Positions 25,163 through 29,274 of a DNA stretch of 35,621 nt are shown here, piece by piece. The notes under the pieces are model-generated. The model did no database searches. It was given only the letters and a program-made list of their open reading frames with translations, and was not told the DNA's origin. Every line of letters begins with the position of its first letter. The stretch's first letter is position 1. A program made the position numbers and the translations under genes. This DNA is from a virus. The stretch is taken from the IMG/VR virus record IMGVR_UViG_3300042896_000231, positions 1 to 35,621 of that record, one strand, 5' to 3'.

Positions 25163-25357
25163 TCAGAACCCCACTACTGACGCAACCTTGAGCGCCAAGA
25201 AGCCGATTGATGCAAAGACAGCGACAAATACCCAAGCTGACTTAGGGATGCGCTCAGAGCCTTTTCTATACGACCCTGCTGCTGAATACCAACCTGAATC
25301 TAGCGAACTATGGCGGGTGAAGTTGATTTGCGTCTGGCCGTTGAAGTTGCTTTTCAT
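25163..25357 (-). CDS. First gene of the left operon: small membrane protein
   Basis: 64 residues. A polar N-terminus (NFNGQTQINFTRHSSLDSGW) is followed by one membrane segment (about 43-62, WVFVAVFASIGFLALKVASV). AAGGAG lies 6 bases before the ATG, about 36 bases after the predicted PL start. In lambda this place is held by the antiterminator N; this protein shows no arginine-rich RNA-binding region and is not N-like. Confidence 0.7.
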   Translation of the reverse strand: MKSNFNGQTQINFTRHSSLDSGWYSAAGSYRKGSERIPKSAWVFVAVFASIGFLALKVASVVGF

Positions 25358-25392: not shown

Positions 25393-25443
25393 TAGAAGAA
25401 TATTAGCGTTACGCTAATCTTTTGTAAATAGCGTAATGCTAAA
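25393..25443 (-). promoter_or_regulatory. PL promoter with operators OL1 and OL2
   Basis: On the minus strand -35 is TTTACA (25428-25423), the spacer is 17 bp and -10 is TAATAT (25405-25400), giving a start near 25393. OL1, ATTAGCGTTACGCTAAT (25402-25418), is a perfect 17-bp palindrome lying in the spacer. OL2, AATAGCGTAATGCTAAA (25427-25443), matches at 13 of 17 positions and touches the -35. The same element occurs three times at OR, so this is the binding site of the phage repressor and Cro. Confidence 0.88.
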
Positions 25444-25515
25444 TTTTTACAGTATTTAAACCCTAATGTGAAAATACTTAGTATTTAATTTGGATTGGTT
25501 GATTCTGTTACAGCA

Positions 25516-25544
25516 CCCATGGATTGAGTTACTGAATCCATGGG
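25516..25544. repeat. Perfect 10-bp inverted repeat between PL and rexB
   Basis: CCCATGGATT (25516-25525), a 9-base spacer, AATCCATGGG (25535-25544). It lies right behind the rexB terminator, has no T-run of its own on the minus strand, and does not resemble the repressor operator. It could be a second back-up hairpin for the terminator or a protein-binding site. Confidence 0.6.
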
Positions 25545-25547
25545 CGT

Positions 25548-25568
25548 AAAAAAACCCGCCAGAGCGGG
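25548..25568 (-). terminator. Terminator of the immunity operon
   Basis: Read on the minus strand: CCCGC, loop TCTG, GCGGG, then a run of seven T. It lies about 50 bp after the rexB stop. It ends the cI-rexB transcript before it can run into the PL promoter, as the terminator behind rexB does in lambda. Confidence 0.85.
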
Positions 25569-25616
25569 CTACAAAATATTTAAGGTGAATGGATAAATTA
25601 ATAAATTATTCAATAT

Positions 25617-26096
25617 TCACGTATGTTTTTTCATTGCTTTATAAGCAACTCCAAATATTGCGTATGTCACTACAACAACTTGTGATAAAGATAATGTAAA
25701 TAAAAATATCATTATATTGAAAGCATAGTATGTATCTCTTTCAGAAAAATTATAAAGTGACACAAATGAATTTAAAACCAAATAAAATATAGCAATAAAA
25801 TATAATGACATAAAAACATTAATATTTTTGCGATTTACATAATCTTTAAATGTTTGTGTATTAAAGATTGTAAAAAAAATAGCAATGACAGCTGCTAAAA
25901 ATCCAAGCATCGTATAAGAAAATCCTGAAATCATAGTTGCAATTTCAAGTTTTTTAGTTTGTAATTTTAGTGGATCTATCCATTTTAGATGCAGAACTAT
26001 CTTGTATGTCGCCAATAATATCAAACCAATTGTCGGAGCTATTAAATTTATGGATAGCATCAATAATCGTTCTGTCGTAGTCGTCATTCTGCTCAT
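25617..26096 (-). CDS. rexB: RexB-like four-helix membrane protein
   Basis: 159 residues with four membrane segments (about 13-34, 54-78, 91-117 and 124-151), as in lambda RexB (144 residues). In lambda RexB is thought to form an ion channel that depolarises the cell when RexA senses a superinfecting phage. The assignment rests on topology, size and position directly behind a clear rexA. Start ATG 26096 has TAAGG 10 bases upstream, inside rexA; a later ATG at 26060 has no such site. The gene thus overlaps the last 143 bases of rexA, whereas the lambda genes only touch. Strongly AT-rich, like all cargo of this operon. Confidence 0.78.
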   Translation of the reverse strand: MSRMTTTTERLLMLSINLIAPTIGLILLATYKIVLHLKWIDPLKLQTKKLEIATMISGFSYTMLGFLAAVIAIFFTIFNTQTFKDYVNRKNINVFMSLYFIAIFYLVLNSFVSLYNFSERDTYYAFNIMIFLFTLSLSQVVVVTYAIFGVAYKAMKKHT

Positions 26097-26928
26097 GATC
26101 TTGTACCTTACTAGCTAAAATGTCATTAGCATTTATTTTTTCAAATATCTCATCATATATATGTTTTTCATTTGATGACTCTAGAATATCATGAACAATT
26201 CCAAGTCCTTCAATTCTAAAATCCGTAAGCTTATCTGCAATCTCATTTTTTGCTCTAATTGTTAATTTATCAATACCTTGGTTATCTGCGTTTATTAAAT
26301 GCTGGCTAATATTTTTGATATTTTGTCGCGATTTTGGTTTAAGTATTACTTCAAATGTTCCTAAATCTTCAAGATCAGATGGTGTAGCTCCAAAAACTTC
26401 AGCTATACGACTAAAAAATGAACTATCTGAATTAACTTCAATAGCAGTTGATCCTATAAAATCCATTTTTAGTGCATCACCACGAGATAGTTTCTCTGTA
26501 AATGCATTAAGTCTAAATTGATAGGCGTGACAATTAAGTCTAGTGAGTAACTCATTGACCAAACTAGTAAATGCTGTAACTGATGGCGCTAATTGTGTTG
26601 AAGCAAAAGCGATATAGTTACTTTTTACCATTATGTAAGATACGAACCCAATGCTTTCATTGAGTGCTAACCGAGACGATATTTCTTCAACTGAAATATT
26701 TTGTTTATCAATTGTTTTAACGATTTCTGTATCTTTTGTTTTAAGAAATAAAAATAAATCACTTCGCTGATTAAGTAAAAAAATTTTCTCATCATTATGA
26801 ATTAGAGTATTTTTAAAAGTTGCATTGTCAAAATTACAAAATCCAATAAGAAAATCTTTAATACTCATTAATATTCTTCTTTCTTTAGCAACCTCATAAA
26901 AATAATATCCATAATAATTAAGTTTCAT
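25954..26928 (-). CDS. rexA: RexA homologue, superinfection-exclusion sensor
   Basis: 324 residues. Compared with lambda RexA (279 residues) from memory, blocks run in the same order: LFLKTKD (59-65; RexA LFTKTND), SVEEI then LNESIGF (89-95; RexA DDESLGF), MDFIGST (155-161; RexA MHFIGRT), VFGAT (178-182; RexA VLGAT), ILKPKSRQNIK (195-205; RexA VIKPKFKRDIK) and IRAKNE (224-229; RexA LRAKDE). RexA binds DNA, and with RexB aborts infection by other phages. The extra C-terminal 45 or so residues correspond to the part that overlaps rexB. GAGATGAT precedes the ATG. As in lambda it sits in the repressor operon, so it is made in the lysogen. Confidence 0.88.
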   Translation of the reverse strand: MKLNYYGYYFYEVAKERRILMSIKDFLIGFCNFDNATFKNTLIHNDEKIFLLNQRSDLFLFLKTKDTEIVKTIDKQNISVEEISSRLALNESIGFVSYIMVKSNYIAFASTQLAPSVTAFTSLVNELLTRLNCHAYQFRLNAFTEKLSRGDALKMDFIGSTAIEVNSDSSFFSRIAEVFGATPSDLEDLGTFEVILKPKSRQNIKNISQHLINADNQGIDKLTIRAKNEIADKLTDFRIEGLGIVHDILESSNEKHIYDEIFEKINANDILASKVQDHEQNDDYDRTIIDAIHKFNSSDNWFDIIGDIQDSSASKMDRSTKITN

Positions 26929-27022
26929 ATCATCTCATTTATATAATTAAAGTTGCAAAACTTGTTTTTTAAATAAAATTTTTTATTAAACAAATTAATT
27001 TTTGATATTTAAAAATAATAAG

Positions 27023-27877
27023 TTAGTTCTTTAACTCACCAGCATACTTATCCCGAAATTCCGCCAGAGTCATAGTGCAAAGTGACTGATCAACCTTTGT
27101 TCCGTATGGCATTCCAATACAGGCGCCCATACCTTCGGCGAGAGGAGTGCTGGACAACACATCAAACTGTTTAATATCCCCATTACGCAGCTTCAACGTA
27201 TATCGAATTTCGTATTGCTCAACCGCTTGCTTGTTAAACAAGGCAGCACCAATGACAGCACCAAGCAAAGTGCTTGATACATCCTTGTTTAGTGAATAAT
27301 TTGCAGGATTTACGTTATTAACGTAAGCCACTGCACCAGCTGCGCCTCCAGCTTCTGCACCGAAATTGCTGCCTGGTGTACTTAAGTTTCTTACTTGTCT
27401 ATCTGTAACGATGCCAACTTCTGAAGCTTCATAAAAAATTATCTTGTAATTATCTGATAAATATTTTTGCTCTTTTTCATTTAATTTTGAATATAAACCT
27501 TTTGATAAACGTAATTCTTTTTTAATTGTTTTTTCTACTGATAAAACATTGTCTACTGCTTGATTGCACTGTTGAGTAGTTGCAACTATGCAAAATCTTT
27601 CAACTTCAATTTTTTTATAATATAAATCACCGGTTTTATTTACCCAGTAATTTAGTGAATCTATTGAAAATGTAGAAAATCCATAATTGACAATTTCTGG
27701 ATAATCTTTCACTAACAAAATCATTCTTTCTGTATCTTCTTTTTTATTTTTAGAAAGAATGAAATCAACCCCATCATAAGCATAATTCCATTGCTTTTTC
27801 TCCGCCCTAGATTGAGGGTTTGTAGTTGATGAGCAACCCTGTATAGCTATTAAAAATATACAGATAATAAATTTCAT
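27023..27877 (-). CDS. Lipoprotein with glycine-zipper-like segments, lysogenic cargo
   Basis: 284 residues. A signal peptide (KFIICIFLIAIQGC) with the lipobox Cys at 15 marks a lipoprotein, probably bound for the outer membrane. The middle is rich in Lys, Asn and Tyr. Residues about 170-215 hold two small-residue-rich stretches (FGAEAGGAAGAVAYV and LLGAVIGAALF) like the glycine zippers of SlyB-type proteins, and the C-terminus with YEIRYTLKLRNGDIKQFDVL resembles their beta part. As part of the repressor operon it would be displayed by lysogens; a role in changing the envelope or blocking adsorption is inference. Low GC compared with the structural genes suggests recent acquisition. Confidence 0.72.
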   Translation of the reverse strand: MKFIICIFLIAIQGCSSTTNPQSRAEKKQWNYAYDGVDFILSKNKKEDTERMILLVKDYPEIVNYGFSTFSIDSLNYWVNKTGDLYYKKIEVERFCIVATTQQCNQAVDNVLSVEKTIKKELRLSKGLYSKLNEKEQKYLSDNYKIIFYEASEVGIVTDRQVRNLSTPGSNFGAEAGGAAGAVAYVNNVNPANYSLNKDVSSTLLGAVIGAALFNKQAVEQYEIRYTLKLRNGDIKQFDVLSSTPLAEGMGACIGMPYGTKVDQSLCTMTLAEFRDKYAGELKN

Positions 27878-27888
27878 TTAGCTCTCAA

Positions 27889-28437
27889 TTATTCAAATGG
27901 CTTAATGTCTAGACAAATACCGTAATTAGCTTTGCTACCATCTTGCATTAAATAACCGCCAGTAATTTCAGCATCACATGTAGTTATCTTTCCGCCAAGT
28001 TTTTTGGCACTTAATCTACGTCTAAAGCTTCTTGCATCATCTTTAGACATACAACCGACAGTCATATTATTTATATCGATTCGAACAGCTAATTTATCGA
28101 ATTGATTGTCATTTTCTGGAATCAGCTTTGCTATGTACTGCCCTACAGGAGATTTATCTCCGTGGTTTCCAGCTGCGGATCTAATTGCAGGTTGATAATT
28201 AGACTCACCAACAACTTCAAAATCAAAGTTTCCTAATGATGGCCAATGCAAGAATGATTCAGTATCAGCATTAACTTTAGGTTTAAGTTCTTCTTGCGCC
28301 CCTTCGATGAGGTTAATTGCATAATATGCAATAACTAGAACACCAAACAAACAAAGCCAGAAATTCTGATCAAATATTCTAGAAAGTATTTCAGCTAGGA
28401 AAGTGACTATAAGGATTACAACGATCCATCTTTTCAT
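27889..28437 (-). CDS. Membrane-anchored HIRAN-domain protein
   Basis: 182 residues from ATG 28437. Two membrane segments open it (about 4-18 and 24-40), followed by a HIRAN-type domain from about 70: FEVVGESNYQPAIRSAAGN, then YIAKLIPENDNQFDKLAVRI and MTVGCMSKDDARSFRRRL. HIRAN domains bind DNA 3' ends or damaged DNA in helicases such as HLTF; alone and attached to a membrane they are uncharacterised. The longer reading from 28497 would overlap cI. It is the first gene behind the repressor, 35 bp away, and its product would be present in every lysogen. Confidence 0.8.
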   Translation of the reverse strand: MKRWIVVILIVTFLAEILSRIFDQNFWLCLFGVLVIAYYAINLIEGAQEELKPKVNADTESFLHWPSLGNFDFEVVGESNYQPAIRSAAGNHGDKSPVGQYIAKLIPENDNQFDKLAVRIDINNMTVGCMSKDDARSFRRRLSAKKLGGKITTCDAEITGGYLMQDGSKANYGICLDIKPFE

Positions 28438-28472: not shown

Positions 28473-29198
28473 TTACAGTTTCCCGCCCGTTTGCCATTCA
28501 ACTACAACGCCAATAACACGCAGTGCAGGGTCATCAATTTCTTTTGTTGGATATGCTGGATTAATGGGCTTTAAAAACCAACTGGCTCCGTCAGTAGTCA
28601 ACTTCTTAAATGTGGCTTTTTGCGTTGTTGTATCTTTCGCAACAACATAGTCACCAGATTTTGGCGCACGCTCAGGATCAATAATAATCAAACATCCATC
28701 TGGGAAATTAACCCCGTTAGTCCCACCAGACATACTATCGCCTTCAACACGCAATGCGAATGCATGTCTACTTGGCTTTGTATATTCAGGTGTTACCCAT
28801 TGATCTGCTTCACCAGGCAAGTGGTTATCCTCTATATCAACTAAAGAACCAGCCGTTACCCATGAAATCAAGGGGACTTGATCGGCTGATAGCGTAGCTT
28901 TACTGATATTTGAGGATAAGTCAATTTTAGTTTCTAAAGAATCAATTAGCTTTGAGAGTTCTGAAGTATGGTCGGTATCTAACCAATTCTTAGACATTCC
29001 AATTTTTTCTTCAATTCTTCTGCAACTTTCCGAACGCATACCTCTAGGGCGGCCTGTTTTCGAATCTAGAGATCCGTTAATCCATTGACTTAATTGCGAT
29101 GAAGAAATGCCGCACGCCTCTGCAAACTCATCAAGAGTTCGGTATTTGGTTCTTAGTTTTGCTAGGTTTTCGCGCCTAATTTCTGTGATTTCTTTCAT
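28473..29198 (-). CDS. cI: CI-type repressor, LexA-like with S24 domain
   Basis: 241 residues from ATG 29198. The helix-turn-helix is TLDEFAEACGISSSQLSQWI (about residues 22-41). The self-cleavage site is Ala-Gly in WVTAGSL (about 117-123), the catalytic Ser lies in EGDSMSG (about 155) and the catalytic Lys in TFKKLTTDG (about 197). It keeps the prophage silent by binding OL and OR and cleaves itself on activated RecA, so the phage is SOS-inducible. A TTG start at 29216 would add six residues, but ATG 29198 lies 8 bases behind the PRM -10, leaving almost no leader, as for lambda cI. There is no ribosome site. Confidence 0.92.
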   Translation of the reverse strand: MKEITEIRRENLAKLRTKYRTLDEFAEACGISSSQLSQWINGSLDSKTGRPRGMRSESCRRIEEKIGMSKNWLDTDHTSELSKLIDSLETKIDLSSNISKATLSADQVPLISWVTAGSLVDIEDNHLPGEADQWVTPEYTKPSRHAFALRVEGDSMSGGTNGVNFPDGCLIIIDPERAPKSGDYVVAKDTTTQKATFKKLTTDGASWFLKPINPAYPTKEIDDPALRVIGVVVEWQTGGKL

Positions 29199-29206
29199 GA
29201 TTTGAT

Positions 29207-29274
29207 TGAATAGCAAAACGCTAATAAAAAGAATTCGCGAAACGCTTGCAATAACATTAGCGTTACGCTAAATT
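29207..29274. promoter_or_regulatory. OR operators with divergent PRM and PR
   Basis: Three copies of the 17-bp operator lie 23 to 24 bp apart: OR3 29209-29225 (13 of 17), OR2 29233-29249 (11 of 17) and OR1 29256-29272 (16 of 17, against the perfect OL1). PR, + strand: -35 TTGCAA (29246-29251), 17 bp, -10 TAAATT (29269-29274), with OR1 in the spacer. PRM, - strand: -10 TATTCA (29212-29207) inside OR3, with a poor -35, as expected for a promoter needing repressor at OR2. Start points fall on or next to the start codons of both genes. Confidence 0.87.

Follow-up and report, generated by a model that had tools for sequence, protein, structure and literature searches.

A membrane-anchored HIRAN protein and an allele-swapped lipoprotein downstream of the repressor gene of a lambda-like temperate siphophage

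What do two AT-rich genes contribute between a phage repressor gene and rexA, and do they form a unit with the genes that follow them? The question is raised by a 35,621-nt virus record (IMGVR_UViG_3300042896_000231, positions 1 to 35,621, here called the window) in which the minus strand, from position 29198 downward, carries cI, a membrane HIRAN protein, a lipoprotein, rexA, rexB and an intrinsic terminator. The original prediction placed both genes in the repressor operon and proposed that, together with rexAB, they look like a block protecting the lysogen against other phages. Its gene coordinates and gene order are confirmed by our analysis, as is the AT-rich composition of the HIRAN and lipoprotein genes, with 35.7% and 34.7% GC against 46.3%; rexA reaches 29%. 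The features on which our argument draws are the following.

28473..29198, minus strand: cI-like repressor (helix-turn-helix and S24 peptidase), the operon's first gene; Pfam Peptidase_S24 1.4e-22, PHROG transcriptional repressor 3e-39
27889..28437, minus strand: membrane-anchored HIRAN protein, 182 aa, with predicted helices 2-22 and 26-50 and a HIRAN domain at about 70-182
27892..28230, minus strand: soluble HIRAN domain, 82-92% DNA identity to elements L003 and L049 over most of its length
27023..27877, minus strand: predicted outer-membrane lipoprotein, 284 aa, with lipobox IQGC, Cys15 and Ser at +2
27428..27826, minus strand: variable region of the lipoprotein, aa 18-150, mostly helical, with alleles that differ in otherwise near-identical elements
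27026..27427, minus strand: conserved C-terminal glycine-zipper domain of the lipoprotein, SlyB-like by profile comparison
25954..26928, minus strand: rexA; Pfam RexA 6.4e-61, PADLOC RexA 1.1e-59
25617..26096, minus strand: rexB, assigned by PADLOC RexB (5.6e-8) and its count of four transmembrane helices
25553..25570, minus strand: intrinsic terminator that ends the operon; in the siblings a similar one comes directly after HIRAN
25488..27893, minus strand: cargo segment lipoprotein-rexA-rexB, missing from siblings L009 and L008
25403..25442, no strand: candidate left operator sites, one copy of TTAGCGTTACGCTAA and another that departs from it at two positions
29210..29271, no strand: candidate right operator sites between cI and a cro-like gene, one exact copy and one with three mismatches
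25163..25357, minus strand: small membrane-protein gene that the window shares with L009 and L008, at the far edge of the cargo slot

The phage is a lambda-like temperate siphophage, and its immunity operon reads cI, HIRAN, cargo and terminator. The exact 15-base palindrome TTAGCGTTACGCTAA is found at 25403 and 29257 with a weaker copy near each, so that, as in lambda, the operon is flanked by candidate left and right operators; matches with up to three mismatches number five, only weakly above chance, and it is the two exact copies, and where they lie, that carry the case. Lying between these operators and ending at a single terminator, the operon is probably transcribed in the lysogen. The window cI is 81% identical to that of L009, and a cI-based search for further siblings returned one remote match besides it. 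DNA similarity to L009 covers cro, cI and HIRAN, breaks off at the HIRAN stop codon and is picked up again at 25487, immediately beyond the terminator region, and the same pattern is seen in L008. Compared with the siblings, the window thus has a 2.4-kb insertion comprising lipoprotein, rexA and rexB. The HIRAN gene, whose ATG start at 28437 is kept in both L009 and L008, is part of the resident operon, siblings included, and the lipoprotein and rexAB are cargo gained in the window lineage.

RexAB is a known abortive-exclusion pair, of which lambda RexAB and RexABpp of the Pseudomonas putida prophage P1 are other members. In the window, the RexA and RexB homologues are encoded side by side downstream of the repressor; the two genes share up to 143 bases, read in different frames (25954-26096), if the first rexB ATG is used, and RexA carries a C-terminal extension of about 50 residues relative to the other aligned RexA proteins. 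At the 18 other rexA loci compared (16 viral loci and two annotated phages), rexA follows the repressor immediately, unlike in the window, with a detected repressor 113-400 bases upstream in 17 of the 18, and neither a HIRAN nor a lipoprotein gene was found at any of them within the DNA examined around each. Conversely, 13 other records that encode a membrane HIRAN protein or a homologue of the lipoprotein, some of them fragments, gave no match to PF15969 (RexA); the same search found the window's own rexA as a positive control. Because neither gene was found in the DNA examined at the 18 loci, nor RexA in the 13 records, the four-gene block is not conserved, and RexAB is not a conserved partner of either protein. 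The original prediction of one four-part defence system could appeal to the window phage, where all four genes share one operon ahead of one terminator, but these two sets of absences and the siblings that carry HIRAN alone render it highly improbable. In the P. putida prophage P1, two genes do lie between cI and rexAB, and deleting either one left resistance to phages 7B and 9A unchanged (PMC12894663); the likeness of these genes (PP_3897 and PP_3898) to the window pair is one of position.

The identity of the HIRAN protein is firm from its family profile, a PDB profile search and the predicted fold, although its single sequence fails: the window protein alone has no Pfam HIRAN match at E<=1 and receives no HIRAN call from PHROGs or PADLOC. 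Relatives were drawn from viral contigs and other collections, a contig scan with narrow peptide patterns yielding one locus, and 31 of the 32 aligned relatives match PF08797 (best 4.4e-11), while the family profile finds the HIRAN domain of human HLTF in the PDB at 3.2e-9. The AlphaFold2 model (pLDDT 88.5) comprises two helices and one domain. Its first 17 Foldseek matches, at probabilities of 0.84-1.00, are each HIRAN or its relative lp_0118, and VIA-align scores it against HIRAN structures at Z 5.4-8.3 (rmsd 2.8-4.2 A over 85-96 residues), with the next match at Z 3.8. The relatives have in common the signature VGESNYQ...E-x-x-N-x-[YFHW]-D...A, and N111, an aromatic residue or His at 113, and D114, which correspond to HLTF N91, Y93 and D94, are kept in all 32 members. 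The window protein has the same fold and N-x-aromatic-D motif as HLTF HIRAN (PF08797; PDB 4XZF, 4S0N, 2MZN), but it has no helicase, is joined to membrane helices and carries VGESNYQ in place of R71/Y72, as judged by eye. In HLTF, the N90A-N91A double mutant disrupts HIRAN function (PMC11237066), and both Y72 and Y93 make stacking contacts with DNA bases (PMC4666394). The position of Y72, in an alignment register set by eye, appears as Asn in 30 of the 32 members, so DNA-end binding by the family is not assured.

When grouped at 75% identity the phage HIRAN members fall into 29 clusters, and a membrane helix is predicted in 23 of these, mostly N-terminal and in several cases C-terminal, and in none of the other six. 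Most single N-terminal helices have their Lys and Arg residues at the end facing the HIRAN domain, a placement consistent with a cytoplasmic HIRAN domain. Repressor adjacency was found in 13 of the 29 clusters, 12 by their representative and one through L009, whose cluster is represented by a truncated contig; among the 12 representatives HIRAN lies six times downstream on the same strand and six times tail to tail with the repressor. The adjoining repressors are S24-type with unrelated sequences. Membrane HIRAN proteins are thus a recurrent phage family, often repressor-adjacent, which is apparently undescribed: no description of membrane-anchored phage HIRAN proteins was found in the open-licence papers searched, where the combination of genes in the window likewise looks undescribed, as the original prediction had supposed. 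The 16 other clusters have no detected repressor alongside, and some of them occupy a second phage niche beside a tape-measure-like gene, named by reading rather than by family search (L015-L018, L023-L029, L031-L033 and L036); one group in this niche has a long C-terminal extension, giving proteins of 275-347 aa. In Burkholderiales (L054, L055, L057, L058 and L059), a membrane HIRAN gene follows a short signal-peptide-bearing gene, whose product by eye resembles periplasmic glutathione peroxidase.

Repeated adjacency to S24-type repressors of unrelated sequence also favors the main rival of a role in phage exclusion, in which membrane HIRAN tunes lysogeny by binding DNA ends or damaged DNA and altering the RecA-stimulated cleavage of its own repressor. 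The precedent would be Hex of phage 434 (PMC3564112). Its gene, like HIRAN in the window, comes straight after cI as the second in the repressor (PRM) operon; it is co-transcribed with cI, and Hex lowers or blocks RecA-mediated repressor cleavage. HIRAN is a domain that binds DNA ends, and it also occurs in HipN antitoxins (PMC8262856). We nevertheless hold this reading to be rather unlikely. More than half of the clusters lie away from a detected repressor, induction control presents no obvious need for a membrane anchor, and Hex, for which the excerpt of PMC3564112 describes neither a HIRAN domain nor a membrane anchor, is thought there not to compete with RecA for DNA.

The HIRAN–lipoprotein pair recurs in L003 and L049, two mutually related elements with a different repressor, whose homology to the window sets in around where the soluble HIRAN domain begins and ends at the lipoprotein stop. 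The upstream transmembrane part of the window HIRAN gene, at 39-45% against L003 and L049, is not similar to them at the DNA level and resembles L009. The window gene is a probable recombinant of an L009-like membrane part and an L003-like soluble domain, with the joint near codon 65-70. Comparison of the window with L003 and L049 gives dN/dS values of 0.11-0.14, indicating purifying selection, for the HIRAN domain and the lipoprotein C-terminus. L003 and L049 themselves diverge after the lipoprotein stop, and the slot that follows HIRAN, or HIRAN and lipoprotein, is filled differently from element to element: it is empty in L008 and L009, holds RexAB in the window, a PDC-M03-type HipA/HIRAN pair with a HigB-type pair in L003 (7393-10282), and a HicAB pair in L049 (3239-3966). 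The M03B-type HIRAN protein near the pair in L003 recalls HipN (HipS-HIRAN) antitoxins and HipL kinases, which are also bacterial HIRAN proteins in conflict-related mobile loci, but whose HIRAN is joined to HipS-like or kinase domains, with no membrane anchor mentioned in the excerpt of PMC8262856. Neighbors therefore vary freely where rexAB is concerned, the association of HIRAN with repressors holds across the 13 clusters, and that of HIRAN with the lipoprotein holds in part, at three loci of which two are sister elements.

The second gene bears out the predicted lipoprotein through its lipobox, and Ser at +2 predicts an outer-membrane location by the Lol rule. Its C-terminal half is kept in distant homologues, including one in L084, and its weak matches in other genomes are SlyB-like proteins. 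Alignment to SlyB-type proteins by hhalign reached 96% and 2.2e-9 over 105 columns, for compared sequences that had been found with the same profile; the Pfam glycine zipper was matched by one of six family members (0.0056), and the profile search gave no convincing PDB relative. With SlyB-type glycine-zipper lipoproteins the window protein shares the lipobox, the zipper and a beta region after it, and differs by an allele-swapped helical N-terminal region and two conserved C-terminal Cys. The model of the N-terminal region gave helical matches of moderate quality (Z at best 6.0, with rmsd 3.6 A over 96 residues), perhaps reflecting a common arrangement, and no fold is assigned to it; that of the C-terminus is unreliable (pLDDT <45). 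In L084 (4956-6216) a short homologue stands directly after an S24 repressor and is followed by a second small lipoprotein gene, and in a Burkholderiales genome (L052, 1144-2370, minus strand) a distant homologue carries a C-terminal SH3-like domain.

The variable region of the lipoprotein has been exchanged by allele replacement. Between L003 and L049, dS is 0.045 for the repressor, 0.10-0.15 for HIRAN and 0.16 for the lipoprotein C-terminus (0.05-0.16 over the flanks as a whole), and 1.28 for lipoprotein residues 21-150. Diversifying selection is ruled out in favor of replacement because dS is raised too and dN/dS is about 0.3. This swapping, together with the defense and toxin–antitoxin cargo nearby, suggests conflict rather than housekeeping, and it is on these grounds that we regard as distinctly unlikely the proposal that the two are morons, unconnected with each other, whose benefit goes to the host cell, the lipoprotein stabilizing the envelope as SlyB does and HIRAN having a repair or stress role. 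That proposal would draw on SlyB being an envelope-stress lipoprotein (PMC13067283), on the HIRAN genes of Burkholderiales chromosomes beside a short signal-peptide-bearing gene and on the SH3-bearing lipoprotein homologue of the same order.

The reading that we tentatively prefer, judging it possible and somewhat short of probable, is a lysogenic-conversion operon that shields the lysogen from other phages in layers, based on place, neighbors, fold and allele swapping. The inner-membrane protein would hold its HIRAN domain on the cytoplasmic face, where it may bind DNA 3' ends such as those of an entering linear genome, and this binding would hinder use of the entering DNA or provide a signal. 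The outer-membrane lipoprotein would sit around outer-membrane proteins through its SlyB-like glycine-zipper domain, much as SlyB rings may enclose such proteins (PMC13067283), and the choice of surface protein to be masked would lie with its exchangeable helical region. RexAB would supply abortive exclusion. Points in favor are the key HIRAN residues, the transmembrane anchors, repressor adjacency, the varied cargo slot, SlyB likeness, allele replacement and the L084 lipoprotein homologue behind an S24 repressor. Against them we count the six clusters without a membrane helix, Asn at the Y72 position and the P1 deletions without effect; neither the HIRAN protein nor the lipoprotein matched a PADLOC defense family at E<=0.1. 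The HIRAN gene is accompanied by this lipoprotein only in the window and the two sister elements, and in L084 the lipoprotein is found with no HIRAN gene; joint action is therefore not required. A broader version of layered exclusion, about which we are more doubtful, would make membrane HIRAN proteins a widespread class encoded in temperate-phage immunity regions, which capture the 3' ends of phage DNA as it enters at the inner membrane and thereby block or sense it; in some phages an outer-membrane lipoprotein would join them, its exchangeable domain determining which phages are affected.

The means by which prophages stop foreign DNA at the envelope are incompletely understood, and a recurrent DNA-end-binding fold joined to membrane helices, often beside a repressor, provides a short list of testable candidates. 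The lipoprotein region swapped between near-identical elements amounts to a natural specificity experiment. Whether the role proves to be exclusion or control of induction, either outcome would assign a function to a family found in 29 clusters.
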